NCBI GenBank assembly: GCA_947846985.1 | Contig: CANTUZ010000025.1 | Coordinates: 13,018,100-13,082,099 of the forward strand | DNA: 64,000 nt | Source of the DNA: Fratercula arctica | Taxonomy: Eukaryota; Chordata; Aves; Charadriiformes; Alcidae | Reading direction: 5' to 3' | Shown here: one piece after another, positions 220 through 58,309 of the stretch | How positions within the stretch are numbered: the stretch's first letter is position 1 | Layout of the letters: each line of letters opens with the position of its first letter | Notes under the pieces: generated by a model | Told to the model about the DNA's origin: nothing | Seen by the model: only the letters and a program-made list of their open reading frames with translations | Databases searched by the model: none | Made by a program: the position numbers and the translations under genes

Positions 220-227
220 GTCCTTTT

Positions 228-245
228 TGGCACCCAATGTGGGGC
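228..245 (+). promoter_or_regulatory. Primer binding site of ERVL-A
   Basis: The 18 bases start with TGG eight bases after the LTR. They match the Lys(1,2)-type primer site seen intact in ERVL-B (TGGCGCCCAACGTGGGGC) with two transitions, so minus-strand synthesis would be primed by a tRNA-Lys. Confidence 0.85.
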
Positions 246-338
246 TTGAAGGGTTGAGATAACGATAAAATGCAATTACAGCTTGTTAAAACGACCTTGT
301 GTGCATTTCTTATATTAGGTAAATAGTCGCTGGTCACC

Positions 339-884: not shown

Positions 885-2396
885 ACAATTACAGGACCCT
901 GATAAAGTAGTAGAATATCTGAAGGGAAAATGCTGTGGCTATTCTAGAGAGGCACAACTCACCGCACTGTGCTGGGCCCTGGCCAGTATCTACCAGGCAC
1001 TGCTCAATATTACACAGCAACCTCAGGGGAAAGAGATGGAAACCAGACCAACAGACACTGCGGCTACTGCAACCCCTGCGACAGACACTGCGGCTACTGC
1101 AACCCCTGCGACAGGCACTGCGGCTACTGCAGCCCCTGTGGCTACTGCAACCCCTGCGACAGACACTGCGGCTACTGCAACCCCTGCGACAGGCACTGCG
1201 GCTACTGCAACCCCTGTGGCTACTGCAACCCCTGCGACAGACACTGCGGCTACTCCAACCCCGGTGGCAGCCACTGCCGCTGAACCAGGGAACCAACCCG
1301 TGCCAGTATCCGTTGCCCCCATACAGAAGAAGAAGTACACGAAGAAATCAGTTCGCTTAGTAAGAGATGACGATGAACCAGCGCCATCACAAGGACAGGA
1401 GGAAGAGGCAGAACCAGAGATAATTACCCGATCCCTATCCTTGAGTGAGCTGCGGGATATGCGAAAAGATTTCAGCAGACTTTCAGGCGAGCACATTGTC
1501 ACCTGGCTGCTTCGGTGTTGGGATAACGGGGCCAGTAGCCTGGAATTAGAGGGTAGGGAAGCCAGGCAGCTGGGATCCCTGTCTAGGGAAGGCGGCATTG
1601 ACAAGGCAATTGGGAAAAAGACACAAGCCCCCAGCCTCTGGAGGCGACTCCTGTCAGGCGTGAGGGAGAGGTACCCCTTCAGTGAAGATGTTGTATGTCA
1701 CCCAAGCAAGTGGACCACCATGGAAAGAGGTATCCAGTACCTGAGAGAATTAGCTGTGCGGGAGATGATTCATTATGACTTGGACAATACAGACTTACCC
1801 ACAGACCCCTATGAGGTCCAATGCACAAGGCCCATGTGGCAGAAGTTTGTACGGAGCGTACCATCGTCATATGCCAACTCATTGGCAGTGATGGAATGGA
1901 AAGGCGAAGAGGGACCAACGGTGGATGAGGTGGCTGGCCAGCTCCGGTAACAGGAAGAAAGTCTCTCTTCCTACCTCACCTCGTATCAGCTGTGGAGAAA
2001 CTGTCCCGGAAGGTCCAGCAACTTGGAGAGAATATATCCTAATCCCCACCTGTACGGGCCAGCATCTCAGATATTAGGAGCAGGCGTTTCCCCACTCAAG
2101 AGAGAGAGTACAGAGGGTACACACCACGAGGCACCCTTTGGTTCTACCTGCGTGACCACGGGGAGGACATGAGGAAATGGGATGGACAACCTACTTGGAT
2201 CCTGCGGACACGGGTACAGGAGTTGCAAGGAAGAACAACCACAAAAGGGGATCCCTCCAGGAAAAGTGCGGCCCCAGTTTCCAGTGGGCAGTTCCCCAGA
2301 CAGAGCATAAGGCCTGATCTTGCTTCTGATCCTCTTGAAGGAACCTCCAAGTCATTTCTGCAAGAAGTGAGTACCGGATACCATGACCAGTATTAG
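817..2396 (+). pseudogene. gag: gag of ERVL-A (stop and frameshifts)
   Basis: The frame is open from 817 to 1950. A Met-Gly start at 829 could be the native Gag start, since an N-terminal Gly is the usual myristoylation site of retroviral matrix. The protein then has a matrix/capsid-like N-terminal part, an Ala/Thr/Pro-rich tandem repeat (about 1051-1262), a basic-acidic linker and a capsid-like C-terminal part. No CCHC zinc knuckle is visible. A TAA at 1948-1950 replaces a CGA seen in ERVL-B, and a 5-nt length difference shortly after shifts the frame. The original C-terminus is recognisable at 2169-2396 and ends at the same TAG as in ERVL-B. Confidence 0.8.
1051..1262 (+). repeat. 30-bp coding minisatellite in gag
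   Basis: Tandem units of about 30 bp encode a 10-residue Ala/Thr/Pro unit (consensus [10 protein letters not shown]), with 18-bp partial units between. Because unit lengths are multiples of three, the gag frame is kept, and unrelated frames on both strands also stay open. ERVL-B carries a different number and order of units at about 52344-52545. Confidence 0.85.
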
Positions 2397-2424
2397 AGGG
2401 GCCCTGCCTCCAGCCAGGTGGAGG
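2394..2424 (+). promoter_or_regulatory. Candidate gag-pol UAG read-through signal
   Basis: Gag ends at TAG (2394-2396). The protease frame continues in the same reading frame without another stop. Ten bases downstream is a perfect 6-bp hairpin, CCTCCA (2407-2412) with TGGAGG (2419-2424), enclosing a 6-base loop. The stop, spacing and hairpin are the same in ERVL-B. This resembles stop-codon suppression in gammaretroviruses; use here is inferred. Confidence 0.55.
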
Positions 2425-3878
2425 AAAGGGACAACCGGGTTTATTGGACAGTGTGGATTCGATGGCCTGGCACATCAGACCCACAGGAGTATAAGGCTCT
2501 AGTGGACACAGGAGCACAGTGTACTCTGATACCATCAAGCTATAGAGGGGCAGAACCCATTTGTATTTCTGGGGTGACAGGGGGATCCCAAGAGTTGACT
2601 GTACTGGAGGCTGATGTGAGTCTAACTGGGAATGAGTGGCAAAAGCATCCCATTGACTGGCCCAGGGGCTCCATGCATCCTTGGTATAGATTACCTCAGG
2701 AGAGAGGGTATTTTAAGGACCCAAAAGGGTATCGGTGGGCCTTTGGCATAGCTGCCTTGGAGACGGAGGAAGTTAAACAGTTGTCTACCTTGCCTGGTCT
2801 CTCGGAGGACTCTTCTGTTGTGGGGTTGTTGAGGGTCGAAGAACAGCAGGTGCCGATTGCTACCACAACAGTGCATTGGTGGTAATGTTGCACTAACCGA
2901 GACTCTCTGATTCCCATCCATAAGCTGATCCGCCAACTAGAGGTTCAAGGAGTGATCAGCAAGACTCGCTCACCCTTTAGAATCCTTCTGAAGGCTGCTT
3001 TTGCCATAAAATGAAGTAAGGTCAAGGGACCTGCACAGGAGGTTTTGGGAATAAAATGGCAAGATGGACGCCGTCAGATCCCAATGGATGTGATCAACAA
3101 AATAGCAGCTATGTCTCCACCAACTAGTAAAAAGGAAACACAAGCTTTCTTAGGCATTGTGGGTATTTGGTGAATGCATATCCCAGATTACAGTCTGATT
3201 GTAAGCCCTCTGTATCAAGTAACCCGGAAGAAGAACGATTTTAAATGGGGTCCTGAGCAACGACAAGCTTTTGAACAAATCAAACAGGAAATAGTCCATG
3301 CAGTGGCCCTGGGGCCAGTCTGGGCAGGACAAGATGTTAAAAACGTGCTCTACACCACAGCCAGGGAGAACGGCCCTACCTGGAGCCTCTGGCAGAAGGC
3401 ACCAGGGGAGACCTGAGGTCGACCCCTAGGGTTTTGGAGTCGGGGATACAGAGGATCCGAAGCCCACTACACTCCAACAGAAAAGGAGATATTGGCAGCA
3501 TATGAAGGGGTTCGAGCTGCTTCGGAGGTGGTTGGTACAGAAGCACAGCTCCTCTTAGCACCTCGACTGCCGGTGCTGGGCTGGATGTTCAAAGAAAGGG
3601 TGCCCACCACACATCATGCAACTGATGCTACATGGAGTAAGTGGATTGCACTGATCACACAGCGAACTCGAATGGGAAACCCCAGTCGCCCAGGAATTCT
3701 GGAAGTGATCATGGACTGGCCAGAAGGCAAGGATTTTGGAATGTCACCAGAGGAGGAGGTGACGCATGCGGAAGAGGCCCACCATATAATAAATTGCCAC
3801 AAAAATGAGTAGCAATATGCCCTGTTCACTGATGGGTCCTGCCGGATTGTGGGAAAGCATTGAAAGTGGAAGGCTGCT
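2397..3878 (+). pseudogene. pol: Protease and remnant RT/RNase H start of ERVL-A pol
   Basis: The frame follows the gag TAG directly. An aspartic protease active site (VDTGAQCT) lies at about 2497-2520. The frame stops at 2883-2885. The first RT segment is then recognisable up to about 2980, where it jumps to a thumb/connection-like segment: the RT palm with the catalytic YxDD box has been deleted. Further stops occur at about 3171, 3414, 3810 and 3858. The RNase H start with a TDGS motif is visible at about 3829-3840. This part cannot make a working RT. Confidence 0.8.
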
Positions 3879-5111
3879 GTGTGGAGTCCTACACGACAAG
3901 TTGCAGAAGCCAGTGAAGGACAAGGTGAATCGAGCCAGTTTGCAGAGGTGAAAGCCATTCAGCTGGCTTTGGACATCGCCGAGCGAGAAAAATGGCCAGT
4001 ACTTTATCTCTACACTGACTCATGGATGGTGGCAAATGCTCTGTGGGGGTGGTTACAGCAGTGGAAGCAGGGCAACTGGCAGTGCAGAGGCAAACCCATC
4101 TGGGCTGCTGAACTATGGCAAGATATTGCTGCCCGGATAGAGAATCTGGTTGTGAAAGTACGCCATGTAGATGCCCACGTACCGAAGAATCGGGCCACGG
4201 AGGAACATCAGAATAACCAGCAGGTGGATCGGGCTGCTAGGATTGAAGTGGCTCAAGTGGATCTGGACTGGCAACATAAGGGTGAACTATTAATAGCTCG
4301 GTGGGCCCATGACACCTCAGGCCATCAAGGAAGAGATGCGACATATAGATGGGCTCGTGACCGAGGGGTGGACTTGACCATGGACACTATTGCACAGGTC
4401 ATCCATGAATGTGAGACATGCGCTGCAATCAAGCAAGCCAAGCGTTTGAAGCCTCTTTGGTATGGAGGACGATGGCTGAAATATAAATATGGGGAGGCCT
4501 GGCAGATTGATTATATCACACTGTCACGAACCTGTCAAGGCAAGCGCTATGTGCTCACAATGGTGGAAGCAACCACTGGATGGCTGGAAACATACCCTGT
4601 GCCCCATGCCACTGCCCGGAATACTATCCTGGGCCTTGAAAAGCAAGTCCTGTGGCGACATGGTACCCCAGAGAGAATTGAGTCGGACAATGGGACTCAT
4701 TTCCAAAACAGCCTCATAGACACCTGGGCCAAAGAGCATGGTATTGAGTGGATATATCACATCCCCTATCACGCACCAGCCTCTGGGAAGATAGAACGGT
4801 ACAATGGACTGTTAAAAACTGCACTGAGAGCAATGGGTGGTGGGACCTTAAAACATTGGGATGCGCATTTAGCAAAGGCTACCTGGCTAGTTAACACCAG
4901 GGGATCTACCAATCGGGCTGTCCCTGCCCAATCAAAACTTCCACGTACCATAGAAGGGGCTAAAGTCCCCGTAGTGCACATGAAGAATATGTTAGGGAAG
5001 ACAGTCTGGGTTAGTCCTGCCTCAGGCAAAGGCAAACCCATCCGTGGGATTGCTTTTGCCCAAGGACCTGGGTGCACTTGGTGGGTAATGCAGAAGGATG
5101 GGGAAGTCTGA
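3879..5111 (+). CDS. pol: RNase H-integrase part of ERVL-A pol (410 aa open frame)
   Basis: This frame is open for 410 codons. The RNase H part shows a Glu in FAEVKAIQ, a TDSW Asp motif and a C-terminal Asp (NQQVDRAA). The integrase has a zinc-binding HHCC array (about 4297-4430) and the full catalytic triad: Asp at 4509-4511 (WQIDYI), Asp at 4686-4688 (SDNGTH) and Glu at 4794-4796 (KIERYN). Exactly 35 residues separate the second Asp and the Glu, as in DD35E integrases. The listed start is only the first in-frame Met after upstream stops, so natively this is the C-terminal part of a Gag-Pol polyprotein. There is no dUTPase or env after it. Confidence 0.85.
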   Translation: MWSPTRQVAEASEGQGESSQFAEVKAIQLALDIAEREKWPVLYLYTDSWMVANALWGWLQQWKQGNWQCRGKPIWAAELWQDIAARIENLVVKVRHVDAHVPKNRATEEHQNNQQVDRAARIEVAQVDLDWQHKGELLIARWAHDTSGHQGRDATYRWARDRGVDLTMDTIAQVIHECETCAAIKQAKRLKPLWYGGRWLKYKYGEAWQIDYITLSRTCQGKRYVLTMVEATTGWLETYPVPHATARNTILGLEKQVLWRHGTPERIESDNGTHFQNSLIDTWAKEHGIEWIYHIPYHAPASGKIERYNGLLKTALRAMGGGTLKHWDAHLAKATWLVNTRGSTNRAVPAQSKLPRTIEGAKVPVVHMKNMLGKTVWVSPASGKGKPIRGIAFAQGPGCTWWVMQKDGEV

Positions 5112-5468
5112 TGTGTACCTCATGGGGATCTGATTTTGGGTGAGAATAGCCAATGAATCAAATTGTGTGTTGTTAATTTCTAAGTAACACTGTCACTGTA
5201 TGTCCTCGTTACTATAATTGCTATCATCTGTACTGCAGTAAGAATCACCCAAGTTAAGGACAGATGGACTTTGATGAAGAATTGAGTAAAGCAAAGTGGT
5301 GATGGGATCAGAGCTGACCTCAGCAGCTGGCGCCCAGCAACTTCCTCAAGATCTACATCTTCAGCCCATGGACTGTGTGGATGAGCCATGCCGGGTACAC
5401 CAGTCACATGTTCTGAAAACTGTAAGATCTGGGCATGGCAAAAATGGTATGGAATAAGGGGTGGATAA
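5112..5468 (+). other. Non-coding 3' segment of ERVL-A before the 3' LTR
   Basis: About 360 bp without an open frame or env similarity. A purine-rich stretch (GGAATAAGGGGTGGATAA) ends directly at the LTR and is the likely polypurine tract. Confidence 0.6.
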
Positions 5469-5809
5469 TGTCCTGGTTCTGGCAGGGACAGGGTTAAGTA
5501 TTCCATGCCATGTGAGCCATGCCCACCCTGAGATTAAGAGAAGGGGAGGGGGCAGGAAGTCGGGCTTGGAGTGGGCTGGCATGTATTGGGTCTGGTTGGT
5601 GAGCGGCGGTTCCGTAATCGCGTTTGTATATTTTTCTATCCGTGTTATTGTTGCTTTTTTTTTTTGTGTGTGTTCCCTTTGCTGTTCTGTTAAACTGCCT
5701 TTGTCTCAACCCAAGAGTTTTGCCTTTTTCTTGTGATCCTTCCCGTATTGGGAAGACCCGAGCAAGCGGCACGTGGTTCTTTGTTGCCATCTGAGGCCAA
5801 ACCACTACA
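5469..5809 (+). repeat. 3' LTR of ERVL-A
   Basis: This 341-bp LTR starts TGTCCTGG and ends CACTACA. It aligns over its whole length with the two ERVL-B LTRs and with positions 1-219. It has a T-rich expansion near 5656. Confidence 0.9.
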
Positions 5810-18589: not shown

Positions 18590-19494
18590 CCTCAGCAAGT
18601 TTGCAGATGACACCAAGCTGAGTGGTACGGTCAACATGCCAGAGGGATGGGATGTCATCCAGAGGGACCTGGACGAGCTGGAGAGGTGGGCCCATGCAAA
18701 CCTTATGAAGTTCAACAAGGCCAAGTGCAAGGTCCTGCACGTGGCTCAGGACAGTCCTCGTTATCAATACAGGCTGGGGGATGACGTGATAGAGAGCAGC
18801 CCTGCGGAAAAGGACTTGGGGGTACTCGTGGATGAAAAGCTGGACATGAGCCAACAATGTGTGCTTGCGGCCCAGAAGACCAATTGCATCCTGGGCTGCA
18901 TCAAAAGAACTGTGGCCAGCAGATCCAGAGAGGCGATTCTCCCCCTCTACTCTGCTCTTGTGAGACCCCACCTGGAGTACTGCATCCAGCTCTGGAACCC
19001 TCAGCACAAGAAGGACATGGACCTGTTGGAGTGAGTCCAGAGGAGGGCCACGAAGATGATCAGAGGGCTGGAGCACCTCTCCTATGAAGACAAGCTGAGA
19101 GAGTTGGGGTTGTTCAGCCTGGAGAAGAGAAGGCTCCAGGGAGACCTTATAGCGGCCTTCCAGTACCTGAAGGGGGCCTACAAGAAAGCTGGGGAGGGGC
19201 TGTTTGCAAGGGCATGTAGCGATAGGATGAGGGGCAATGGTTTTAAACTGGAGCAGGGTAGGTTTAGATGAGACATTAAGAAGAAGTTCTTTACAATGAG
19301 GGTGGTGAAGCACTGGCACAGGTTGCCCAGAGAGGTGGTGGAGGCCCCATCCCTGGAGACATTCAAGGCCAGGCTTGCTGAGGCTCTGAGCAACCTGCTC
19401 TAGTTGAAGATATCCCTGCTTACTGCAGGGGAGTTGGACTAGATGACCTTTAAAGGTCCCTTCCAACCCAACACATTCTATGATTCTATGATTT
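18590..19494 (+). mobile_element. CR1 LINE, 5'-truncated in the RT domain
   Basis: It starts inside the RT at the catalytic FADD box (about 18599-18610) and runs through the RT C-terminus to the 3' UTR and ATTCTATG octamers. One in-frame stop (TGA at 19032-19034) and a second at 19269-19271 break the frame. It is very similar to the minus-strand copy at 39477-40370. Confidence 0.93.
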
Positions 19495-19682: not shown

Positions 19683-21126
19683 TACAGATCCCACTGACTG
19701 GAAAAGGGGAAATATAACCCCCATTTTCAAAAAGGGAAAAAAGGAAGACCCAGGGAACTACAGGCCAGTCAGTCTCACCTCTGCGCCTCACAAGATCATG
19801 GAGCAGATCCTCCTGGAAAGTCTGCTAAGGCACATGGAAAATAAGGAGGTGATTGGTGACAACCAACATGGCTTCACCAAGGGCAAGTTGTGCTTGACAA
19901 ATTTGGTGGCTTTCTACGATGTTGCCACAGCATTGGTAGATAAGGGGAGAGCAACAGATGGCATTTACCTGGACTTATGCAAAGTGTTTGACACTGTCCC
20001 GCACAACATCCTTGTCTCTAAATTGGAAAAGCATGGATCTGATGGATGGACCACTTGGTGGATAAGGAACCATCTAGATGGCTGCACTCAAAGGGTTGCG
20101 GTCTATGGCTTGATGTCCAAGTGGAGAGCAATGACAGGTGGTGTTCCTCAGGGGTCAGTACTGGGACCAGTACTATTTAACATCTTTGTTGGTGACATGG
20201 ACAGTGGGATTGAGTGCACCCTCAGCAAGTTTGCTGACAACACCAAGCTGTGTGGCACAGTCGACATGCTGGAGGGAAGGGATGCCATCCAGAGGGACCT
20301 GGACAGGCTTGAGAGGTGGGCCTGTGTGAACCTCATGAAGTTCAACCAGGCCAAGTGCAAGGTCCTGCACCTGGGTCACGGCAATCCCATGCACAATTGC
20401 AGGCTGGGCGGAGAATGGCTTGAGAGCAGCCCTGAGGAGAAGGACTTGGGAGTACTGGTGGATGAGAAGCTCAACATCAGCTGGCAATGTGTGCTTGCAG
20501 CCCAGAAAGCCAACCACATCCTGGGCTGAATCAAAAGAAGCATGGCCAGCAGGTTGAGGGAGGTGATTCTGCCCCTCTGCTCCGCTCTCGTGAGACCCCA
20601 CCTGGAGTACTGCATCCAGCTCTGGAGTCCTCAGCACAAGAAGGACATGGACCTGTTGGAGCAAGCCCAGTGGAGGGCCACGAAGATGATCAGAGGGCTG
20701 GAGCACCTCTCCTATGAGGACAGACTGAGAGAGTTGAGGTTGTTCAGCCTGGAGAAGAGGAGGCTCCGGGGAGACCTTATAGCAGCCTTCCAGTACCTAA
20801 AGGGGGCCTACAGAAAAGATGAGGAGGGATTCTTTATCAGGGAGCATAGTGATAGGACGAGGGGTAATGGTTTTAAACTGAAAGAGGGGAGATTTAGATT
20901 AGATATTTGGAATAAATTCTTTACTGTGAGGGTGGTGAGGCACTGGAACAGGTTGCCCAGAGAAGTTGTGGAGGCCCCATTCCTGGAAGTGTTCAAGACC
21001 AGGCTGGATGGGTCTTTGAGCAACCTGGTCTAGTGGGAGGTGTCCCTGCCCATGGCAGGGGGGTTGGAACAAGATGACCTTTACAGGTCCCTTCCAACTC
21101 AAACCATTCTATGATTCTATGATTTT
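19683..21126 (+). pseudogene. CR1 LINE, RT domain to 3' end
   Basis: A nearly open frame covers RT motifs from [10 protein letters not shown] through [10 protein letters not shown] to the C-terminus. The catalytic box reads FADN (about 20231-20242), so the second catalytic Asp is lost. A TGA at 20527-20529 also breaks the frame. The 3' UTR ends in ATTCTATG octamers at 21126. It follows another CR1 in the same orientation, separated by about 190 bp. Confidence 0.93.
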
Positions 21127-30121: not shown

Positions 30122-32187
30122 ATGCCAGAATGTCCCCTCCCGTTGCTAGGAAGAGACTTCTTGTGTAAATTAAATGCACAAATAACCTTTTTGGTAGATT
30201 CTGTTCAGTTGCATATTCCTCCAGAGACTGCTTGGAAAGCACAGATATGTTTGTTGACTGAGAAAAGTCAAAACGAAGAACCAGACATTCCGGAAAAAGT
30301 ACTGGACGCTGTCATCCCTCTGGTGTGGGCATCAAAAATACCTGGACGAGCGAAGAACGTGACTCTGGTAAAGATTGAATTGAAACCAGGAGCTCAACTG
30401 GTAAGGAGAAAACAGTATCCCATTAAATTGGAGGCTAGAAAAGGATTAGAACCTGTAATAAATTCTTTTTTAGAGCATGGACTGTTACAAGAATGCCAAT
30501 CGGAATGTAATACTCCAATTCTACCTGTAAAGAAATCCCACTTAACAGAGTATAGACTAGTACAGGATTTAAGAGAAATTAACGCAAGGACGATAGATGT
30601 CCACCCTGTGGTCCTGAACCAATATACCCTTCTTGCTTCAATTCCTGGCAGCAATATTTATTTTACAGTACTGGATTTAAAAGACACCTTTTTCTGCATA
30701 CCTGTGGATGAGCAAAGCCAGACCATCTTTGCTTTTGAGTGGGAGAATCCTACTATGGGACGAAAGACACAACTTTGTTGGACTGTCCTTCCTCAAGGAT
30801 TCAAAAACAGCCCTACATTTTTTGGTAATGTACTTGACAAAGAACTCAAACAATGACAAAATGACCATAATGCTGTAATGTTATTGCAGTATGTGGATGA
30901 TTTGTTAATTGGTACTGAAAGAAAGCTCAGATTGGGAAAGAAAAGGTCCAATATATGGAGTCTGAAATTACCAAAGGACGGAGAGAATTGAGTAAAGAAA
31001 GAAAAGAAGCAATTTGTAGAATTGCAGTGCCAACATCAAAAAATTAAAGGGTTTTTGGGAATGGCCAGATGGTGCCGTCTATGGATCCCTAATTTTGGAC
31101 TCGTTGCCAAACCATTATATGCTGCCATAAAAGGACCTGAAGGGGTTCTTGAGTGGACCCCTGATTGCAGAAAAGTTTCGGTGAGATCAAAAGAAAGCTT
31201 ATGGAAGCTCCTGCCCTGGGACTTCCCAACCTAGGAAAACCTTTTCAACTATATGTAAACGAATGGCAACAGATGGTGCTAGGAGTCCTAACTCAGAAAT
31301 TAGGGAGTTGGAAGAGACCTGTGGGGTACTTTTCTAAGCAATTGGATGAAGTCAGGAAAGGTTGGCCTGCATGCTTGAGAGCAGTGGCAGCAACTGTAAC
31401 GCTGATTGAAGAATCTTGGAAGTTAACCTTGGGTCAACTGATTACTGTGTTTGTACCCTATGCTGTGTCCTCTCTCCTAGAAAATAAGGGACACCACCAG
31501 ATTTCGCCAAGTAGATTAGCCAAATATCAAGCTGTGCTATTGGAGCAAGATGATATTATAATTTCAATGACTTCTGCACTGAATCCTGCTACCTTACTCC
31601 CGATCTCAGAATCTGACCCATTGCAACACGATTGTTTAACCACTATCTCACAAGTATATTCCAGCAGGCCCAATCTACGAGATGAACCCTTACCCAATGA
31701 GGAATTGGAGCTATTCACGGATGGAAGTAGCTTCATGTCAGAAGGAAAATGAAGAGCTGGATATGCAGTGGTAACTCTTACTCAGGCCCTAGAGGCTAAA
31801 TCTCTATCTCATAATACTTCTGCTCAAAAGGCTGAATTGATTGCATTAGCACGGGCCTTGGAACTCAGTCAAGGAAAAAGAGTTAACACTTACACAGATT
31901 CTAAATATGCATTCAGAGTAGTTCATGCACATGGAGTGATTTGGAAAGAAAGGGGACTTTCAAGCTCATAGGGAGCTCCAATCAAATATGGAACAGAAAT
32001 AATGAAACTTTTACAAGCTGTCTTGCAGCTGAAAGAAGTTGCAATAATGCATTGTAAAGCCCATCAAAAGGGAAATACTGAAATTATATTGGGAAAACAG
32101 AAAGCAGATCAGTTGGCAAAGGAGGCCGCATTGAAAGGATCAAAAATTGAACATCGGGTAGAGAACCCAGATTTGGGACAACACTAG
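30122..32187 (+). pseudogene. pol: pol remnant of the class I ERV (protease end, RT, RNase H)
   Basis: Only the end of the protease remains (LPLLGRDFL); the DTG active site is absent. RT runs from about 30290 with the VQDLREIN and LPQGFKNSP motifs. A TGA at 30854-30856 precedes an otherwise conserved YVDD box (30890-30901). The thumb is shortened and shifted through several frames to 31165. Connection and RNase H follow (TDGSSF about 31719, AELIALARAL, TDSKYAF, HCKAHQKG), with stops at 31750-31752 and 31969-31971. The frame ends just after RNase H in the 3' LTR stub. Integrase is wholly missing. Confidence 0.85.
32152..32183 (+). repeat. Stub of the 3' LTR of the class I ERV
   Basis: The last 32 or so bases match the 5' LTR end (AGAACCCARATTTGGGACAACA) and run directly into CR1-B. 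U3, R and most of U5 are gone. Confidence 0.75.
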
Positions 32188-39200: not shown

Positions 39201-39476
39201 CATGGGTAGCAAACACTAAGTGCCTTTTAAAAGAAATATGACACACATGGTGTTTGCCAGTCAGGCATGTAATTGTTCTGGTTATTTTGTCTTTACAAAG
39301 TAAAAAACAGGGGGTTCTAGCAGATAGGGATTCAAGGGTAAACTCTTGATCCAAGTGAGTTTTCAAAATTGCTTCTAAATTTTCTGTATCAGCCCTAAAG
39401 CCAAGACTACACATTGCTAGGGGAATAATAAACAAACAAAATCCCAGACCAAATACAGAACAAACATATTTCATAA
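33293..39476. other. Long AT-rich stretch without recognised features
   Basis: About 6.2 kb with short frames only. There is a short (CA)n-C tract at 36283-36300. No exon or repeat family can be supported. Confidence 0.5.
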
Positions 39477-41184
39477 AATCATAGAATGTGTTGGGTTGGA
39501 AGGGACCTTTAAAGGTCATCTAGTCCAATCCCCCTGCAGTAAGCAGGGATATCTTCAACTAGATCAGATGGCTCAGAGCCTCAGCAAGCCTGGCCTTGAA
39601 TGTCTCCAGGGATGGGGCCTCCACCACCTCTCTGGGCAACCTGTGCCAGTGCTTCACCACCCTCATTGTAAAGAACTTCTTCCTAATGTCTCATCTAAAC
39701 CTACCCTGCTCTAGTTTAAAACCATTGCCCCTCGTCCTATCGCTACATGCCCTTGCAAACAGCCCCTCCCCAGCTTTCTTGTAGGCCCCCTTCAGGTACT
39801 GGAAGGCCGCTATAAGGTCTCCCTGGAGCCTTCTCTTCTCCAGGCTGAACAACCCCAACTCTCTCAGCTTGTCTTCGCAGGAGAGGTGCTCCAGCCCTCT
39901 GATCATCTTCGTGGCCCTCCTCTGGACCCCCTCCAACAGGTCCATGTCCTTCTTGTGCTGAGGACTCCAGAGCTGGATGCGATACCCCAGGTGGGGTCTC
40001 ATGAGAGCAGAGTAGAGGGGGAGAATCACCTCTCTGGATCTGCTGGCCACAGTTCTTTTGATGCAGCCCAGGATGCAATTGGTCTTCTGGGCTGCAAGCA
40101 CACATTGTTGGCTCATGTCCAGCTTTTCATCCACGAGTACCCCCAAGTCCTTTTCCGCAGGGCTACTCTCTATCACGTCATCCCCCAGTCTGTATTGATA
40201 ACGAGGACTGTCCCGACCCAAGTGCAGGACCTTGCACTTGGCCTTGTTGAACTTCATGAGGTTTGCATGAGCCCACCTCTCCAGCTCGTCCAGGTCCCTC
40301 TGGATGACATCCCATCCCTCTGGCACGTCGACCGCACCACTCAGCTTGGTGTCATCTTAAACTTGCTGAGGGTGCACTTGATCCCACTGTCTATATCATT
40401 GATGAAGATATTGAACAGCACCGATCCCAGCATGGATCCCTGAGGGACACCGCTTGTGAACCCTCTCCATCTGGACATCAAGCTATTGACCACTACCCTC
40501 TGGATGCGACCATCCAGCCAGTTCCCTAACCACCGAACAGTCCACCCATCAAATCCATATCTCTCCAACTTAGAGAGAAGGATGTTGTGGGGGACCGTGT
40601 CAAAGGCCTTGCAGAAGTCCAGGTAGATGATATCCGTAGCTCTCCCCTTGTCCACTGATGCAGTCACTCCATTGTAGAAAGCCACTAGGTTGGTCAGGCA
40701 GGACTTGCCCCTGGTGAAGCCATGCTGGCTGTCTCGAATCACCTCCCTGTCCTCCATGTGCCTTAGCATAGCTTCTAGGAGGATCCGTTCCAGGATCTTC
40801 CCAGGCACAGAGGTGAGGCTGACAGGGCGGTAGTTCCGGGGGTCCTCCTTTCTACCCTGCGATGTTTCCCTTTTTCCAGTCACCAGGGACTTCACCTGAC
40901 TGCCATGACTTTTCAAGTATCATGGAGAGTGGCTTGGCAACTACATCAGCCAATTCCCTCAGGACTCTGGGGTGCATCTCATCAGGTCCCATGGACTTGT
41001 GTATATTCAGGTTCCTCAGGTGGTCACGAACCTTGTCTTCACTTCCAGTGGGAGGGACTTTGTCCCGCAGGTCCCTGTCTTGCGGTCCTTCAACTTGGGA
41101 GGCGTGAGGAGAGAGACTGGCAGTGAAGACCAAGGCAAAAAAATTGTTCAGAACCTCAGCCTTCTCCTCGTCTGTTGTTACCAT
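39477..41184 (-). pseudogene. CR1 LINE, endonuclease-RT linker to 3' end
   Basis: On the minus strand it runs from the segment before RT (41184) through the RT ([28 protein letters not shown]) to the C-terminus and 3' UTR, with octamers at 39477. A frame break near 40860 and a one-base loss at about 40360 (in the FADD catalytic box) disable it. It is the same subfamily as 18590-19494. Confidence 0.93.
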
Positions 41185-49510: not shown

Positions 49511-49996
49511 ATAACAGGCCGTAAGACAGTGGCCCCCTCTAAAAAGGCCTCTGTGGGTCCGAAGTTTGTATGGTCATGCCCCAGGCTCCAAGTACGTCTC
49601 TCCCCCATAGATTAAGGGGAACATTAACAATGTATGGGCGAACAGTTGCAACTTGACCTTCCGGCCCTATTATCTGAATAACATGTAAGCTTTGTCGAGA
49701 GGTGGAAACTCCCCCAATTCCAGCAAGCCCGCCACTGGCAGAGGCAGTGGGCCACTGAGGAGGCCAACGCTGGAAAGAGATCACAGTCACGTCAGCCCCT
49801 GTGCCAATCATTCCTTTGACTGTGATCGACTCTGGCTTGTGACCCCCGTTACGTAGCTGACTGGTTAATGTTGGTCGTGTGGCTTGAATTTGGTGTGCCC
49901 AATAGATCACTGGAGTTCCTGTGGAGCCAAAGCCTCCTGCCCCTCTCCTTCTGAGCTTGGCACATGGCACTGAGCTCAAGAAAGGGACTAGCTGGG

Positions 49997-50342
49997 TGTC
50001 CTGGTTCCGGCAGGGACAGGGTTAAGTATTCCATGCCATGTGAGCCACGCCCACCCTGAGATGAAAAGGAGGGAGGGGGCGAGCAGTCGGGTTCGGAGCG
50101 GGCTGGCGCGTCCCGGGGCCGGACCGGCGGGGAGCGGCGGGGAGCGGCGGTTCCGTATTCGCGTTTGTATATTTCTCTGTCGGTGTTATTGTTGTTGTTT
50201 TCTTGTTCCCTTTGCTGTTCTGTTAAACTGCCTTTGTCTCAACCCAAGAGTTTTGCCTTTTTCTTTCGATCCTTCCCGTACCGGGAAGCGCTGGGCGAGC
50301 GACACGTGGTTCTTTGTTGCCATCTGAGGCCAAACCACGACA
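49997..50342 (+). repeat. Left LTR of ERVL-B (plus orientation, 346 bp)
   Basis: It starts TGTCCTGGTTCC and ends CCACGACA. It is followed on the plus strand by the primer binding site, but by no gag: the sequence turns directly into antisense RT. Confidence 0.95.
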
Positions 50343-50350
50343 GTCCTTTT

Positions 50351-50368
50351 TGGCGCCCAACGTGGGGC
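50351..50368 (+). promoter_or_regulatory. Left primer binding site of ERVL-B and inversion junction
   Basis: A perfect Lys-type TGGCGCCCAACGTGGGGC. Its last seven bases (GTGGGGC, 50362-50368) also read, on the minus strand, as the GCCCCAC expected to follow ACA in the RT motif PQGWKHSPT, so the junction has 7-bp microhomology. Confidence 0.9.
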
Positions 50369-51233
50369 TGTGTTTCCACCCCTGGGGCAGTCGATTCCAG
50401 GTGTACTGGATGCCCCTCCAAGTGAAAGCAAACTGTGGCCTGCACTCTGCTGCCAAAGGGATTGAGAAAAATGCATTCGCTATATCAATCGTGGCATACC
50501 ACTTGGCTGCCTTAGACTCCAGTTCATACTGGAGTTCTAGCATATCCGGCACAGCAGCGCTCAGTGGTGGCGTGACTTCATTCAGGCCACGATAGTCTAC
50601 AGTTAGCCTCCACTCTCCATTGGATTTTCGCACCGGCCATATAGGACTGTTAAAAGGCGAGCGAGTCTTACTGATCACTCCTTGAACCTCTAGTTGACGA
50701 ATCAGCTTATGGATGGGAATCAGAGAGTCTCGGTTAGTGCGATATTGCCGCCGATGCACCGTTGTGGTAGCAATCGGCACCTGCTGTTCTTCGACCCTCA
50801 ACAACCCCACAACAGAAGAATCCTCCGAGAGACCAGGCAAGGTGGACAACTGTCTAACTTCCTCCGCCTCCAAGGCAGCTATGCCAAAGGCCCATCGATA
50901 CCCCTTTGGGTCCTTAAAATACCCTCTCCTGAGGTAATCTATACCAAGGATGCATGGAGCATCTGGGCCAGTCACAATGGGATGCTTTTGCCACTCATTC
51001 CCAGTTAGGCTCACTTCAGCCTCCAGTACAGTCAACTCTTGGGATCCCCCTGTGACCCCAGAAATACAAATGGGTTCTGCCCCTCTATAGCTTGATGGTA
51101 TCAGAGTACACTGTGCTCCTGTGTCCACTAGAGCCTTATACTCCTGTGGGTCTGATGTGCCAGGCCATCGAATCCACACTGTCCAATAAACCCGGTTGTC
51201 CCTTTCCTCCACCTGGCTGGAGGCAGGGCCCCT
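50369..51233 (-). pseudogene. pol: Protease and first part of RT of ERVL-B (truncated)
   Basis: It continues in the gag frame after the UAG at 51234-51236. The protease shows VDTGAQCT (about 51133-51156) and DAPCILGIDYL. RT follows with WRLTVDYRGLNEV and DIANAFFSIPL, and ends at LPQGWKHSP where the inverted LTR begins. The RT catalytic YxDD box and all downstream enzymes are missing. The frame continues by chance through the antisense LTR to 50223. All retained motifs are intact, so loss came with the rearrangement rather than decay. Confidence 0.88.
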
Positions 51234-51236
51234 CTA
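51206..51236 (-). promoter_or_regulatory. Candidate gag-pol UAG read-through signal of ERVL-B
   Basis: TAG at 51236-51234; the same frame stays open afterwards. A perfect 6-bp hairpin (51223-51218 with 51211-51206) starts ten bases downstream, identical to ERVL-A. Confidence 0.55.
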
Positions 51237-53258
51237 ATACTGGTCATGGTATCCGGTACTCACTTCTTGCAGAAATGACTTGGAGGTTCCTTCAAGAGGA
51301 TCAGAAGCAAGATCAGGCCTTATGGTCTGTCTGGGGAACTGCCCACTGGAAACTGGGGCGGCACTTTTCCTGGAGGGATCCCCTTTTGTGGTTGTCCTTC
51401 CTTGCAACTCCTGTACCCGTGCCCGCAGGATCCAAGTAGGTTGTCCATCCCACTTCCTCATGTCCTCTCCATGGTCTCGCAGGTAGAACCACAGGGTGCC
51501 TCGTGGTGTGTACCCTTTGTACTCTCTCTCTTGAGTGGGGAAATGTCTGCTTCTAATAGCTGAGATGCTGGCCCGTACAGGTGGGGAGCAGGACATATTC
51601 TCTTCAAGTTGCTGAACCTTCCGGGACAGTTTCTCCACAGCTGAGACAAGGGGGGAAGAGAGGCTTTCTTCATATCGCCGGAGCCGGCCAGCCACCTCAT
51701 CCACCGTTGGTCCTTCTTCACCTTTCCATTCCATTACTGCCAGTGAGTTGGCATATGACAATGGTGCGCTCCGTACAAACTTCCGCCACATGGGCCTTGT
51801 GCAGTGCACCTCATCAGGATCTGTGGGCAAGTCTGTGTTGTCCAAGTCATAATAAATCATCTCCCGCACGGCTAATTCTCTCAGGTACTGGATACCTCTT
51901 TCCATGGTGGTCCATTTGCTTGGTTGACATACAACATCTTCACTGAAGGGGTACCTCTCCCTCACGCCTGACAGGAGTCGCTTCCAGAGGCTGAGGGCTT
52001 GGGTCTTTTTTCCAATTGCCTTATCAATGCCGCCTTCCCTAGACAGGGATCCCAACTGCCTGGCTTCCCTACCCTCTAATTCCAGGCTACTGGCCCCATT
52101 ATCCCAACACCGAAGCAGCCAGGTGACAATGTGCTCGCCTGAAAGTCGGCTAAAATCTTTTCGCATATCCCGCAGCTCACTCAGGGATAGGGATCGGGTA
52201 ATTATCTCTGGTTCTGCCTCTTCCTCCTGTCCTTGTGATGGCCCTGGTTCATCGTCATCTCTTACTATGCGAACCGATTTCTTTGTGTACTTCTTCTTTT
52301 GTATGGGGGCAACGGATACTGGCATGGGTTGGTTCCCTGGTTCAGCAGCAGTGGCTGTCACCGGGGCTGGAGTAGCTGCAGTGTCTGTCACCGGGGTTGC
52401 AGTAGCCGCAGTGCCCATCGCAGGGGTCGCAGTAGCCGCAGTGCCCGCCGCAGGGGTCGCAGTAGCCGCAGTGTCCGTCGCAGCAGCACCTGCCACAGGG
52501 GCCACAGCAACCGCAGCGCCTGCCGCAGGGGCCGCAGCGCCTGCTGGTCTGGTCTCTGTCTCTTTCTTCTGAGGGTGCTGCATAGCACTGAGCAGTGCCT
52601 GGTAGACACTAGCCAGGGCCCAGCACAGTGCGGTGAGTTGTGCCTCTCTAGAATAGCCACAGCACTTTCCCCTCAGATATTCTACTATTCTATCAGGGTC
52701 CTGTAACTGTTCAGGGGTGAAGTCCCAGACCATTGGAGGTGAGAAGTTCTCTAAGTACCTGCCCATGTTCTCCCACCTGCCATGCCACCCCTGACTGTCC
52801 AGCCTCAGAGCAGATCTCTGGGTGGTAGTCTTAAATAGTTGTTTAACCCTAAACGAGACCTGGAACATATTCAGCAAACATAACACTAGGAACATGCTGG
52901 TTTGAGCATCCCAAGGATATTCAAAATTCTCAAAAGCTGTCATACCTGACTCAAAGGAGAAAAGGGAGGCAAAAGAGCTGGGGAAAGTGTCCCCCCCTGT
53001 TTCCCCCATAGACTGGGTGTAATTATTAATGAATTCTGAGAGACGGTGCCCAATGTACGGACAGGAGAGCAATATCACATAAATGCCCCAAAATAACCGT
53101 CTAACAAGTGATGTTATCATATCATAAGCCGATATTGCACAGGACAGCAAAATGATAATCCTCATCCCCCTCCCAGAAGTAACAAATATCATCACAGGGA
53201 GTGCATAAAACACATAGGAGTTTACATAACACAGCCATGAGAACAAACTAAGCAACAT
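51234..53258 (-). CDS. gag: Membrane leader plus Gag of ERVL-B, one intact 674-aa frame
   Basis: The frame is uninterrupted. Residues 1-148 are the hydrophobic multi-pass segment also found as a separate ORF in ERVL-A (likely membrane spans about 3-26, 33-52, 55-70, 121-137). A Met-Gly at residue 165 (52766) could be the native Gag start, giving a 510-residue Gag. The Ala/Thr/Pro minisatellite segment follows (about 52545-52344), then a charged linker, a capsid-like helical part and a C-terminal tail. No CCHC knuckle is present. Compared with ERVL-A there is one base fewer near the end of the membrane part, which fuses the two frames. Whether the fused or the split form is ancestral cannot be told from two copies. 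Confidence 0.8.
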   Translation of the reverse strand: MLLSLFSWLCYVNSYVFYALPVMIFVTSGRGMRIIILLSCAISAYDMITSLVRRLFWGIYVILLSCPYIGHRLSEFINNYTQSMGETGGDTFPSSFASLFSFESGMTAFENFEYPWDAQTSMFLVLCLLNMFQVSFRVKQLFKTTTQRSALRLDSQGWHGRWENMGRYLENFSPPMVWDFTPEQLQDPDRIVEYLRGKCCGYSREAQLTALCWALASVYQALLSAMQHPQKKETETRPAGAAAPAAGAAVAVAPVAGAAATDTAATATPAAGTAATATPAMGTAATATPVTDTAATPAPVTATAAEPGNQPMPVSVAPIQKKKYTKKSVRIVRDDDEPGPSQGQEEEAEPEIITRSLSLSELRDMRKDFSRLSGEHIVTWLLRCWDNGASSLELEGREARQLGSLSREGGIDKAIGKKTQALSLWKRLLSGVRERYPFSEDVVCQPSKWTTMERGIQYLRELAVREMIYYDLDNTDLPTDPDEVHCTRPMWRKFVRSAPLSYANSLAVMEWKGEEGPTVDEVAGRLRRYEESLSSPLVSAVEKLSRKVQQLEENMSCSPPVRASISAIRSRHFPTQEREYKGYTPRGTLWFYLRDHGEDMRKWDGQPTWILRARVQELQGRTTTKGDPSRKSAAPVSSGQFPRQTIRPDLASDPLEGTSKSFLQEVSTGYHDQY
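52344..52545 (-). repeat. Coding minisatellite in ERVL-B gag
   Basis: About 30-bp units encode Ala/Thr/Pro-rich decapeptides in a different number and order from ERVL-A (1051-1262). The frame is preserved. Confidence 0.8.
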
Positions 53259-53335
53259 AGTGACCGTGACTATTTACCTAACAAATTCGTTTTTTCAAGC
53301 TCTAGTTAGATTCTGTCGTTGTCTCAACCCTTCGA

Positions 53336-53353
53336 GCCCCACGTTGGGCGCCA
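53336..53353 (-). promoter_or_regulatory. Right primer binding site of ERVL-B
   Basis: A perfect Lys-type primer site on the minus strand, eight bases inside the right LTR. It serves the gag-pol side. Confidence 0.93.
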
Positions 53354-53361
53354 AAAAGGAC

Positions 53362-53707
53362 TGTCGTGGTTTGGCCTCAGATGGCAACAAAGAACCACGT
53401 GTCGCTCGCCCAGCGCTTCCCGGTACGGGAAGGATCGAAAGAAAAAGGCAAAACTCTTGGGTTGAGACAAAGGCAGTTTAACAGAACAGCAAAGGGAACA
53501 AGAAAACAACAACAATAACACCGACAGAGAAATATACAAACGCGAATACGGAACCGCCGCTCCCCGCCGCTCCCCGCCGGTCCGGCCCCGGGACGCGCCA
53601 GCCCGCTCCGAACCCGACTGCTCGCCCCCTCCCTCCTTTTAATCTCAGGGTGGGCGTGGCTCACATGGCATGGAATACTTAACCCTGTCCCTGCCGGAAC
53701 CAGGACA
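53362..53707 (-). repeat. Right LTR of ERVL-B (minus orientation, 346 bp)
   Basis: The reverse complement matches the left LTR except for one G/T difference near the CCCTGAGAT position. It is the promoter side of gag. Confidence 0.95.
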
Positions 53708-53903
53708 CTGGGCAATGCGGCTTTCTGCCGGTATGGAGACTGGTGGGGATGGCGTCCATACCATAGCTTGAATCTGTCCTGTATAATCCGCAAAACAAAT
53801 AGTCCTTGGGAGGTGGTGCTAGATCGTCCAATTAACAGTGCACTAAGACCTCTTCCCAGTGGTCCATATAGTGCGAGAGGCACACGATGTACATTTTGGT
53901 CTA

Positions 53904-55586
53904 TTATTGTGACGTTGATGGCTGTGGCAACATCCATACCGGCGCTTCCGGTGGTCTGTGCTCAGAGGCTGTCCAGACCCGTGATGTCCGTGGGCGCATG
54001 CCTAATAGGCTTGGGTTGTGGGGCATTTGTGTCGAGGCACGCCCCTGCTTCGCGCTGGTCCTTCCGTTTCCCAAATGCGGGGATAGTGGTTGCCCGACCT
54101 TATTATATCTTGAATGGCATTGATTTGCAAAATGTTTGCCTTTACCGCAGCATGAACAGATATCTGGGGTCAGATCATTGGCTCCTGTCCCTTGCGGACA
54201 GCTACGCTTAAAATGACCTGGTTTGCCACAACGGAAGCATATTCGCTCTTTTGTTCTAACGGCAGCAGCGAATGCAGCCGCAAGCATATCGGTTTGATAG
54301 GAAATGGATCCCACTCTATTACAAGCCTCTATCATATCTATTAGGCTTGGATTCTTTAGGGGTTGCAAAATACATTTACAATCAATATTAGCATTTTCCA
54401 CTGCTAGTTTTAACATCAGAGCTTCTTTGGCCTCTACGTTATCCACTTGCTTATGAATAGCTTCTTGTAAACGATCAATAAATGTCATGTATGGTTCATT
54501 GGGACCCTGCTTGATAGTTGTGAAGGATTGGGTTGCCTTGCCTGTGTCAGGGACCTTAATTATAGCTTTCAGGGCAAGGTCTGCCGACTGCTTTAAAATT
54601 TCTGGTGCTAGCCGCGCTTGGAGCTGCGGAGTATCGACGGGTGACTCCCCCAACAATTGAGGGAGACCTGCCCTCTGTAGAGGATCTCCATCTTCTCTAG
54701 ACAAATTATCTATTGCGGCAAAACTGCATGCGTCTCTCCAGTGTGCCATAAAGAGAACACGCTGCGTGGGGGTAAAGATAACATCTGCCAATTGTCTGAT
54801 ATCAAACGGAGTTAGTATGTGTCCCTTCATAATGGTATTTAATAATCCTTGCGCATACGGGGAAGTTAGTCCATGCTGCATAATCGTTTTTCGCATTTCT
54901 TTAACTAGCTCCCAGCTCAGCGGTTCCCAAGTATTTGGTCCTTGTCGAGTGATTTTCACAGGACACACGAGGGCAGTAGCGGCTTCTAAATCGCCGTCTT
55001 GTGTTGCCTGTTTACGTAACTGCTGCCAGTGCTGCCAGCGCTGGGCGGGATCGTAAGTCGTGGGAACTGCCTGACTTGGCGGGGGATCCTCCCAGCCCGG
55101 TAAATCCCTTTCCTGCAAGCACTGTCGTATTCGAACTAGAGGTTCGGACCCGGGGGGCTGCGGCGGTGCTGCCGCCGAATCTAACGGGAGTGCTGACGGC
55201 GTAGCATGATGATGGCCCGGGGGCTCGAGCTTCTCCCCCTCCTTTTCCTCTATATGAGCGGCAGCCGGGCTGTCCGGCGCCACCGCGGCAACGGCGGCGG
55301 CCGCGGCAGCCCGTTCTGATTTCATCTGCTGTAATGTGTCCTTAATTAACCTCCAGGTTGTTAAGACCTTCGTAGCTACCGCATCCCCTTTCGTTGCTGC
55401 CTCAAACAAAGTTTCACCGGCTTGCTCCCAATTTGATAATTGGAAAGCTGTTGTAGAATCAGCGGGAAGGCCCTTGCTTTTCAGTCATGCTAGCAAAAGC
55501 CAAAGAGTTCCTTCATCATATTGTATACCCCTTTTACTTAAAAACTTTTCTAATATACATACAATCGCCTTTTCCTCTGAGGACAT
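53904..55586 (-). pseudogene. gag: gag of ERVK (one in-frame stop)
   Basis: The start ATG is at 55586-55584. A TGA at codon 34 (55487-55485) is the only break; the following frame is open for over 500 codons. The protein has an Ala-rich segment, a capsid with the major homology region (IKQGPNEPYMTFIDRLQEAI, about 54533-54474) and two CCHC knuckles (CFRCGKPGHFKRSC and CSCCGKGKHFANQC, about 54250-54125). It ends at 53904, overlapping the dUTPase frame by about 35 bp, which suggests frameshift expression of pro. No N-terminal myristoylation Gly is seen. Confidence 0.87.
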
Positions 55587-55744: not shown

Positions 55745-56072
55745 TGTGGAGCATTGATTCACGGACTCTGGCAGGGTATGGACCAAAAGACCTTTATTAC
55801 AACAATTTCCCGAGTTTTATAGGTACAGGTACTGTCCACGCGCAGGCAGCATCCTGCTGGTAGGTTGAAGGTCGATTGCCACGCGCTTCTCAGTGTCTTC
55901 TAACTGGTCGTCTCTGACTGTTCACGCGGAGTAGCAGCTTTGCTTTTCACATTCCTGTTCTTGCTGATATCTCCTGACGCTTGCTTATCTTTTCTCTCAA
56001 GGCGCCTCTCACGGGTACAGCTTTGTCTCATCAAGGCCAAACAGATTCCCTATGCTACTCTCTATCTCCACA
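55745..56072 (-). repeat. 5' LTR of ERVK (328 bp)
   Basis: Ends TGTGGAG/CTCCACA. It differs from the 3' LTR by about four substitutions and one single-base indel. Confidence 0.95.
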
Positions 56073-58309
56073 AACTCCCTCTGAAATGCTTATACACCAA
56101 TGCATGCAGCATGGGGAATAAACAGGAAGAGCTGGAGATCTGTGTGTGGTTGCAGGGCAATGAGAAGATAGAGTTCAGGATCATGGGTACTAAGCACAAA
56201 ACAACAAGAAGTAAAATTACAAGCTTGGATTTCAGGAGGGCTAACTTTGACCTCTTCAAGAAACTGCTTGGAGAGATCCCGTGGGCTAGGGCTCTGGAAG
56301 GCAAGAGGGCTCAAGAGAGCTGGTTGGTATTCAAATACCACTTTCTCCAAGCTCAGGATTGGTGCATCCCTAAGAGCAAGAAATCAGGCAAGGGACGCAG
56401 GAGACCTGCATGGTTGAGCAGGGAGCTTCTGAAAAAGCTCAAGAGGAAGAAGGAAGTTTACAATACGTGGAAGAAGGGACTGACTGCTTGGGAAGATTAC
56501 AAGAATGCCGCCAGAGTATGCAGGGATGAAATGAGGAAAGCCAAGGCCTCCTTGGAATTAAACCTGGCAAGGGATGTCAAGGACAACAGGAAGGGCTTCT
56601 TCAAGTACATTGGAGGCAAAAGGAAAACTAGAGAAAATGTGGTCCCGCTGTTGAATGAGACAGGAGCCATGGTGACGGAGGATGCGGAGAAGGCGGAGTT
56701 ACTGAATGCCGCCTTTGCTTTGGTCTTTACTGCTCAGGCCAGCCCTCAGGAGTCCCAGACTTTGGAGGCAACAGGGAAAGTCTGGACAAAGGAAGACTTC
56801 CCCTTGGTTGAGGAGGATCAAGTGAGAGATCAATTAAGTAAACTGGATATCCACAAGTGCATGGGTCCCGATGGGATGCACCCGAGAGTGCTGAGGGAGC
56901 TGGCAGAAGTCATTGCTGGGCCGCTCTCCATCATCTTTGGAAGGTCCTGGAGAACAGGTGAGGTGCCTGAGGACTGCAGGAAAGCCAATGTCACTCCAGT
57001 CTTCTTAAAGGGCAAGAAGGAAGACCCGGGAAACTACAGGCCAGTCAGCCTCATCTCCATTGCTGGAAAGATGATGGAACAGCTTGTTCTGGGTGTCATC
57101 TCAAGGCATGTGGAGGAAAAGAAAGCTATTGGAAGTAGTCAACACGGATCCACCAAGGGGAAACCATGTCTGACTAATCTGATAGCCTTCTACGATGGTG
57201 TGACTGGATGGATAGATGAGGGGAGGGCAGTGGACGTTGTCTACCTTGACTTCAGCAAGGCTTTCGACACGGTCTCCCACAGAATCCTCATAGGGAAGCT
57301 TAGGAAGTGTGGGTTAGATGAATGGACAGTGGGGTGGATAGAAAACTGGTTGGAAGACAGAGCTCAGAGGGTCCTGATTAGGGGCACAGAGTCTAGTTGG
57401 AGGTCTGTGACAAGTGGTGTTCCCCAGGGGTCAGTACTGGATCCATTCCTCTTCAATATATTCATCAATGACCTGGATGAAGGGATAGAGTGCACCCTCA
57501 GCAAGTTTGCTGATGACACAAAACTGGGAGGGGTGGCTGACACACCAGAAGGCTGTGCCACCATACAGCAAGACCTGGACAGGCTGGAGAGTTGGGCAGA
57601 GAGGAACCTTATGAAATTCAACAAGGGCAAGTGTAGGGTGCTGCACCTGGGGAGGAATAACCCCATGCACCAGTACAGGTTGGGGGCTGACCTGCTGGAG
57701 AGCAGCTCTGTGGAAAAAGACTTTGAAGTCCTGGTGGACAACAGGATGACCATGAGGCAGCAATGTGCCCTTGTGGCCAAGAAGGCCAATGGCATCCTGG
57801 GGTACATCAAGAAGAGTGCGGCCAGCAGGTCGAGGGAGGTCATCCTCCCCCTCTACTCTGCCCTGGTGAAGCCACATCTGGAGTACTGTGTCCAGTTCTG
57901 GGCTCCCCAGTTCAAGAAGGACAGGGAATTGCTGGAGAGGGTGCAGCAAAGGGCTACGAAGATGATTAGAGGACTAGAGCATCTCTCTTATGAAGAAAGG
58001 CTGGGGGACTTGGGTCTTTTCAGTCTGGAAAAAAGAAGAATCGGGGGGGATCTTATTAATGCTTATAAATACTTAAAGGGTGGGTGTCAGGAGGATGGGG
58101 CCAGGCTCTTTTCAGTAGTGCCTGGCAACAGGACAAGAGGTAATGGGCACAAACTTCAACATAGGAAGTTCCATCTAAGCATGAGGAGGAACTTCTTTTC
58201 TTTGAGGATGGCAGAGCACTGGAACAGGCTGCCCAGAGAGGTGGTGGAGTCTCCATCTCTGGAGACGTTCAAAACCCGCCTGGACGTGTTCCTGTGCAAC
58301 CTGCTCTAG
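56073..58309 (+). CDS. CR1 ORF2 with endonuclease core deleted, RT open (about 745 codons)
   Basis: The frame is open throughout. The endonuclease start ([20 protein letters not shown]) is joined at about 56154 to the endonuclease end (EKIEFRIMG), removing the segment that should hold the GDFN and SDH catalytic motifs. The deletion keeps the frame. The linker and RT follow: [31 protein letters not shown] and an intact FADD box (57506-57517). The C-terminal domain ends [16 protein letters not shown]. The 5' end of the natural ORF lies before the ERVK insertion. It encodes a plausible RT but no working endonuclease. Confidence 0.85.

Follow-up and report, generated by a model that had tools for sequence, protein, structure and literature searches.

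A foamy-like provirus with inverted LTRs in Fratercula arctica, probably formed by mispriming of strong-stop DNA

Results

A provirus with inverted LTRs inside an ERVK

The window (the whole stretch of DNA analysed, 64,000 nucleotides of Fratercula arctica, to which all coordinates refer) contains a provirus whose two LTRs face in opposite directions and which interrupts the dUTPase region of a host ERVK. The features of the locus are as follows.

49542–49991, minus strand: host ERVK, end of dUTPase and protease, post-insertion part
49992–49996, no strand: target-site duplication, left copy, CTGGG (sequence and random-position control)
49997–50342, plus strand: left LTR, inverted copy, U3 outward
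50343–50350, plus strand: 8-nt spacer GTCCTTTT from LTR end to PBS, left copy
50351–50369, plus strand: left PBS, 19 nt common to the right copy, tRNA-Lys type
50362–50369, minus strand: join, 8-nt overlap AGCCCCAC of pol and the PBS complement
50370–51233, minus strand: truncated pol, with a protease-like stretch (below the Pfam cut-off) and the N-terminal part of RT, ending LPQGWKHSPT
51234–51236, minus strand: in-frame TAG at the boundary of the gag-position frame and pol
51237–53273, minus strand: gag-position frame, open for 679 codons from stop to stop, with no Pfam family
53274–53334, minus strand: leader 3' of the right PBS, matching the related provirus collinearly
53335–53353, minus strand: right PBS, in the normal place after a 5' LTR
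53354–53361, minus strand: 8-nt spacer, right copy
53362–53707, minus strand: right LTR, corresponding to the normal 5' LTR, U3 outward
53708–53712, no strand: target-site duplication, right copy, CTGGG (sequence and random-position control)
53713–53961, minus strand: host ERVK dUTPase, pre-insertion part, with the Pfam match and the last residues in different frames

The inverted repeat has arms of 374 nt (49996–50369 and 53335–53708) spaced 2965 nt apart within the 64-kb window, the outermost base of each arm being a chance pairing between the final G of one CTGGG and the C in the other. Each arm holds a 346-nt LTR, at 49997–50342 (+) and 53362–53707 (−), with TGTCC at its outer edge and CGACA at its inner end, so that the pair is inverted with U3 outward and lacks the direct orientation of the LTRs of an ordinary provirus. 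Inward of each LTR lie an identical 8-nt spacer, GTCCTTTT, and 19 nt of PBS, which read TGGCGCCCAACGTGGGGC plus T in both copies. The LTRs are identical at 345 of 346 positions, and the one mismatch in the 373 nt of arm falls at window position 50063, which is G on the left and T on the right (LTR sense); the right-arm base is also present in the related LTR at 5469. This near-absence of LTR divergence suggests a young insertion. Mapping of the arms and their ends bears out the original prediction of opposed 346-bp LTRs with U3 outward and a PBS facing inward from each, and its word "perfect" holds for the target duplication and fails for the LTRs, which differ at one base.

Among the 18 inverted pairs of at least 100 nt in the window, the LTR pair has the tightest spacing and is the only one given as 100% complementary. 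Another inverted pair (18605–19491 and 39471–40357; 887 nt, 96%) lies 20 kb apart, and further copies of this 887-nt repeat at 20240–21068 and 57512–58170 mark it as a repeat family.

The host site and the target duplication

CTGGG stands at 49992–49996 and at 53708–53712, directly outside both LTRs, and both outer ends are complete U3 starts (TGTCC) lying flush with this one short duplication. When left and right positions were drawn at random in the ERVK flanks as a control, a shared 5-mer was obtained in 400 of 400,000 draws. A target duplication of 5 bp is typical of class III ERVL and foamy-like retroviruses, and this is the length found here.

With the flanks read separately on the minus strand, each reading taking in one copy of the duplicated bases, the pre-insertion part ends SIPAESRIAQ and the post-insertion part reads QLVPFLSS...GFGSTG. 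A protein search with the second (left) flank returned 21 ERVK relatives, several of them bird proteins named POK9 (ERVK-type), and in 12 of the 21 the end of the first peptide and the start of the second fall on the same residue, as for an uninterrupted site. One relative, P0129 (Cepphus grylle), carries the uninterrupted site with 93% and 94% identity to the two flank peptides; among the remaining nine, P0130 matches neither peptide and eight align only in part. Pfam assigns dUTPase to the first flank and retroviral protease to the second. SIPAESRIAQ and the Pfam-scored part of the dUTPase are read in different frames, so the host copy is itself frameshifted in this part. The surrounding frames encode ERVK-type gag, RT and integrase in the same orientation. 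The flanks thus agree with the earlier placement of CTGGG on both sides of the element within an ERVK dUTPase region.

An open frame of 801 codons (stop to stop) adjoins this ERVK at 55904–58309 (+), and by its motifs it resembles what we take to be a LINE-type reverse transcriptase. A further retroviral RT, with LPQGFKNSPT and an internal stop, is found at 30332–30958 (+) and represents a third type of element.

The right half is an ordinary 5' end

A related provirus occupies window positions 1–5809 (+), with a PBS at 228–246, a direct 3' LTR at 5469–5809 and a 5' LTR truncated by the start of the window. From a point shortly past the PBS and on into pol, its interior is collinear with that of the inverted-LTR element (2737 aligned positions, 90.5%). 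Because this relative has a direct 3' LTR and a collinear interior, the right LTR, PBS and leader of the inverted-LTR element can be recognised as an ordinary 5' end, and the abnormal LTR is the left one, where the PBS passes straight into pol read backwards. The related provirus was considered as a source of the normal pol sequence and set aside, since its homology to the element extends only to 2979 and it lacks the RT core; an integrase similar to that of PFV is readable in it at 4233–4898.

The 8-nt spacer GTCCTTTT between LTR end and PBS is unusually long and is also present in the related provirus (220–227). Its presence in both proviruses implies that a normal insertion would require the removal of several bases from U5. 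The left copy of the inverted-LTR element retains the spacer and PBS, which are absent from the integrated 3' LTR of the related provirus (end 5809).

No Pfam family was found in the 679-codon frame, so the name gag is given by position alone. Tandem units of about 30 nt within this frame, at 52331–52537, code for a stretch rich in Ala, Thr, Val and Pro. The single in-frame TAG between this frame and pol is as in retroviruses that use stop readthrough at the gag/pol boundary.

Among solved structures, the RT piece matched 7o0h, 7o0g and 7o24 (Pr125Pol) best, then 7kse, all ahead of MLV RT. We take the Pr125Pol entries to be foamy virus, which puts the RT closest to the foamy type. The integrase closest to that of PFV belongs to the related provirus only (4233–4898), the inverted-LTR element being without an integrase region. 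Close protein relatives, among the matches listed, come from crane, stork, swallow and other birds. This provirus belongs to a foamy-like (ERVL-type) family of retroviruses, which we assume to be class III.

The junction carries the end point of strong-stop DNA

The left LTR meets pol in reverse orientation within the RT motif LPQGWKHSPT. In the proviral sense the motif runs on into the complement of the PBS, the bases across the join reading CAC AGC CCC ACG TTG GGC GCC. Identity between the arms ends at PBS nucleotide 19, after which the left copy enters pol and the right copy continues into the leader. We take the PBS to be of the tRNA-Lys type; no tRNA gene for comparison with it was found in the window.

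A search for protein relatives yielded 1167 matches, and the following figures rest on 120 of the 1167. LPQGxxxSxT is present in 79 of these 120; the motif reads SPT in 77 of the 79, the next residue is I in 77, and ICH follows in 70. Of the other 41, five (P0001, P0039, P0047, P0070 and P0104) can be aligned over the whole end of the query and go on with ICHG; in the remaining 36 the alignment either stops short of the query end or departs from the frame there or earlier. Among the 120, 5 show a second-frame reading around HLPW and 6 a third-frame reading ending AMD, and some of them join the frame only after the site.

The bases usually present in pol at this site were deduced by requiring the main frame and the second- or third-frame protein readings to be encoded together. 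With the second-frame reading QPHHLPW (P0022 and P0110), 9216 codings are reduced to 8, and with the third-frame readings TAPPSAM (P0031) and TAPPFAM (P0043, P0061) 4 codings are left in each case. All codings for these three sets of relatives give CAC AGC CCC ACC AT, with CACAGCCCCACCAT as the only possibility, so that the usual pol bases fixed by the multi-frame relatives are AGCCCCACC. One relative, P0099 (TALPFAM), has AGC CCT ACC, implying AGCCCTAC and one mismatch within the 8. By this deduction, which draws on proteins of different copies and not on DNA, normal pol and the PBS complement would have the 8 nt AGCCCCAC in common, the next base being C in pol and G in the element.

The overlap starts at PBS base 19, the same point at which arm identity ends. 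An overlap of at least 8 arose in 27 of 400,000 random junctions between the element's own interior and the inverted arm, and in 17 of 400,000 when the relative's gag-pol was used. No other match of more than 6 consecutive nt to the PBS end was found in the 2965-nt interior, and none in the interior of the related provirus, where the RT core is missing. In viral contigs and prokaryote genome contigs, no relative was found that would supply normal pol DNA or a second junction; two scans of the viral contigs returned 2 and 27 pattern-matching stretches, none confirmed as a relative.

Plus-strand strong-stop DNA consists of U3-R-U5 and a copy of the last 18 tRNA nucleotides, ending near the methylated A58. 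The left arm has both the content and the end point of this intermediate (U3-R-U5-PBS). Mispriming by strong-stop DNA predicts an arm that ends at PBS base 18 or 19 and a pol match at the join; the arm ends at base 19, and the protein deduction points to the match, with P0099 one mismatch away. This junction signature, the strong-stop end point combined with an 8-base pol overlap, goes beyond what had originally been predicted.

Origin of the structure

The junction, the outer ends and the duplication can be read directly in the DNA, and we consider it likely that strong-stop DNA, by its tRNA-copied 3' end, primed wrongly on plus-sense pol and that integrase then used two U3 ends. For the order of strand transfers, we infer that the strong-stop 3' end would have paired with plus-sense pol in place of the minus-strand PBS (GCCCCAC, 7 pairs, or 8 with the next A), and that extension from pol back to the RNA 5' end would have added gag', PBS', U5' and R'. 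The resulting strand would carry U3 at its start and R' at its end, and an R-to-R transfer, to co-packaged RNA or to LTR DNA, would add U3'. A second strand primed at a PPT beside U3' and copied to the 5' U3 end would then yield a linear DNA that has U3 at each end and lacks a U5 end, which integrase could insert in one concerted reaction. In a mirror version of these steps, a broken pol plus strand would prime on strong-stop DNA, with the same two partners and the same outcome in sequence. One mispriming event would explain the cut pol, the absence of env and the 3' end, the complete outer ends and the use of both by integrase.

Two steps of this scheme deserve comment. The R-to-R transfer is an extra requirement that leaves no trace in the sequence, and this counts against the mispriming model. 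There is no clear polypurine tract before the relative's 3' LTR, with no purine run of at least 9 within 90 nt, and PPT priming is thus an assumption. The nearest candidate, AAGGGGTGGA, includes a T and does not occur in the interior of the inverted-LTR element, which has five other purine runs of at least 11.

The same join could have been made by host end joining before integration, in which microhomology of the same 8 bases united a double-stranded fragment of LTR and PBS with viral DNA truncated in pol, and integrase inserted the product at its two U3 ends. Microhomology joins are identical in sequence, so the 8-nt overlap fits either route, and end joining would need no R-to-R transfer. 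It would, however, require an open double-stranded end at PBS base 18 or 19, a break exactly at the matching 8 bases of pol and a join with nothing lost or added, and we regard it as improbable.

Rearrangement after integration, whereby a provirus with direct LTRs lost its 3' part and received an inverted LTR by inversion or recombination, draws on the facts that host DNA rearranges and that related copies exist, one of them in the window. The breakpoints would have to fall exactly at the LTR start beside CTGGG and at PBS base 19, and recombination with a genomic copy would bring the leader along. As the duplication directly abuts the two LTR starts and the host dUTPase is uninterrupted, we find this account very hard to sustain. 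Near-identical inverted arms are difficult to assemble, yet an assembly or cloning artefact would give no reason to expect 8 common bases at a join on the PBS limit, a 5-bp duplication and adjacent dUTPase flanks, and the arms differ at one base, so that next to no probability attaches to it; given the join, the duplication and the flanks, assembly error is unlikely. Autointegration, which yields circles or inverted circles, was rejected since a join at the PBS limit is not among its predictions.

Mispriming during reverse transcription is accordingly our preferred reading, and the earlier suggestion that the structure formed at that stage is now the best account of a join at the strong-stop end with 8 common bases. 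From the complete ends and the 5-bp duplication we likewise infer that insertion by two U3 ends is likely, which makes the predicted joining of two U3 ends by integrase the best reading of the outer borders. No U3-U3 insertion in cells was found in the literature searched.

Discussion

The element resembles class III ERVL and foamy-like ERVs of birds in its Pr125Pol-type RT and in the PFV-like integrase of the related provirus, and it is unlike them in its inverted LTRs, in a pol cut within RT, in the lack of env and a 3' end and in what appears to be a U3-U3 insertion. No integrase-type provirus with inverted LTRs was found in a literature search by title and abstract, the scope of which lay mostly outside subscription journals (older retrovirus work).

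Inverted LTRs are known as the terminal repeats of DIRS-1, an element with a tyrosine recombinase (PMC5633606), and in its terminal repeats DIRS-1 is like the element described here. The inverted-LTR element differs in its tRNA-type PBS, its 5-bp duplication and the retroviral DDE-type integrase of its related copy, and inverted LTRs are the plan of a family in DIRS-1 and, as far as seen, the accident of one copy here. Among DIRS-type traits, pol shows only RT and protease and the gag frame no Pfam family, and the related provirus has a PFV-like integrase; as the element is truncated, the missing recombinase is weak evidence against a DIRS type. Chicken Hitchcock elements were considered as an inverted-LTR family and set aside, being given as undefined in the accessible portion of PMC4992247, where inverted LTRs go unmentioned.

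Other systems share parts of the proposed pathway. Template switching, including the move of strong-stop DNA to another template, is given as the cause of asymmetric LTRs and inversions in HIV proviruses, which are similar in this respect; an outward U3 pair or a U3-U3 insertion is not described in the available text of that study (PMC9278108). For RSV and HIV whose DNA ends are defective or whose integrase is inhibited, PMC5041404 reports that the second end is joined by the host with deletions or large duplications; abnormal viral DNA ends lead to abnormal proviruses there as here, whereas both ends are complete in our element and the duplication is 5 bp. Complexes of Triticeae LTR retrotransposons arise by abnormal template switching before integration and are enclosed by one TSD, also as here, but they are fusions of two parent elements, and neither "inverted" nor "strong-stop" occurs in the main text (PMC1950507). 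PMC12220202 concerns a tRNA-Gly insertion with HIV deletions, PMC5651808 the pairing of strong-stop DNA with the PBS of genomic RNA, and PMC5065131 two yeast Ty3 LTRs in chromosome recombination and not a provirus.

One may ask if, owing to a repeat of the 3' part of the tRNA-Lys primer in the conserved S-P-T codons of RT, strong-stop DNA of this family recurrently lands on its own pol, giving a class of head-to-head mini-proviruses, each with two U3 ends, that foamy-like integrases insert U5-free and that direct-repeat annotation tools miss. We hold this broader conjecture to be doubtful. A protein search for open frames reading into an antisense LTR gave two candidates, neither significant, and so lends recurrence no support; the search is a weak one, such frames being short. 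A chicken ERV survey describes LTR_STRUC as seeking direct repeats (PMC2329609), and head-to-head proviruses would escape that kind of scan.

If the proposed origin is right, the element would preserve in the germline a natural case of integrase inserting DNA by two U3 ends, and of strong-stop DNA that primed on the genome in the wrong sense, with the priming site legible to the base. The question it touches is whether a U5 end is required in foamy-type integration. For spumaviruses, asymmetric processing in which U5 is cut and U3 is left intact was once proposed and is disputed in PMC1180852; a U3-U3 insertion would demonstrate that integration can proceed from U3 ends only.
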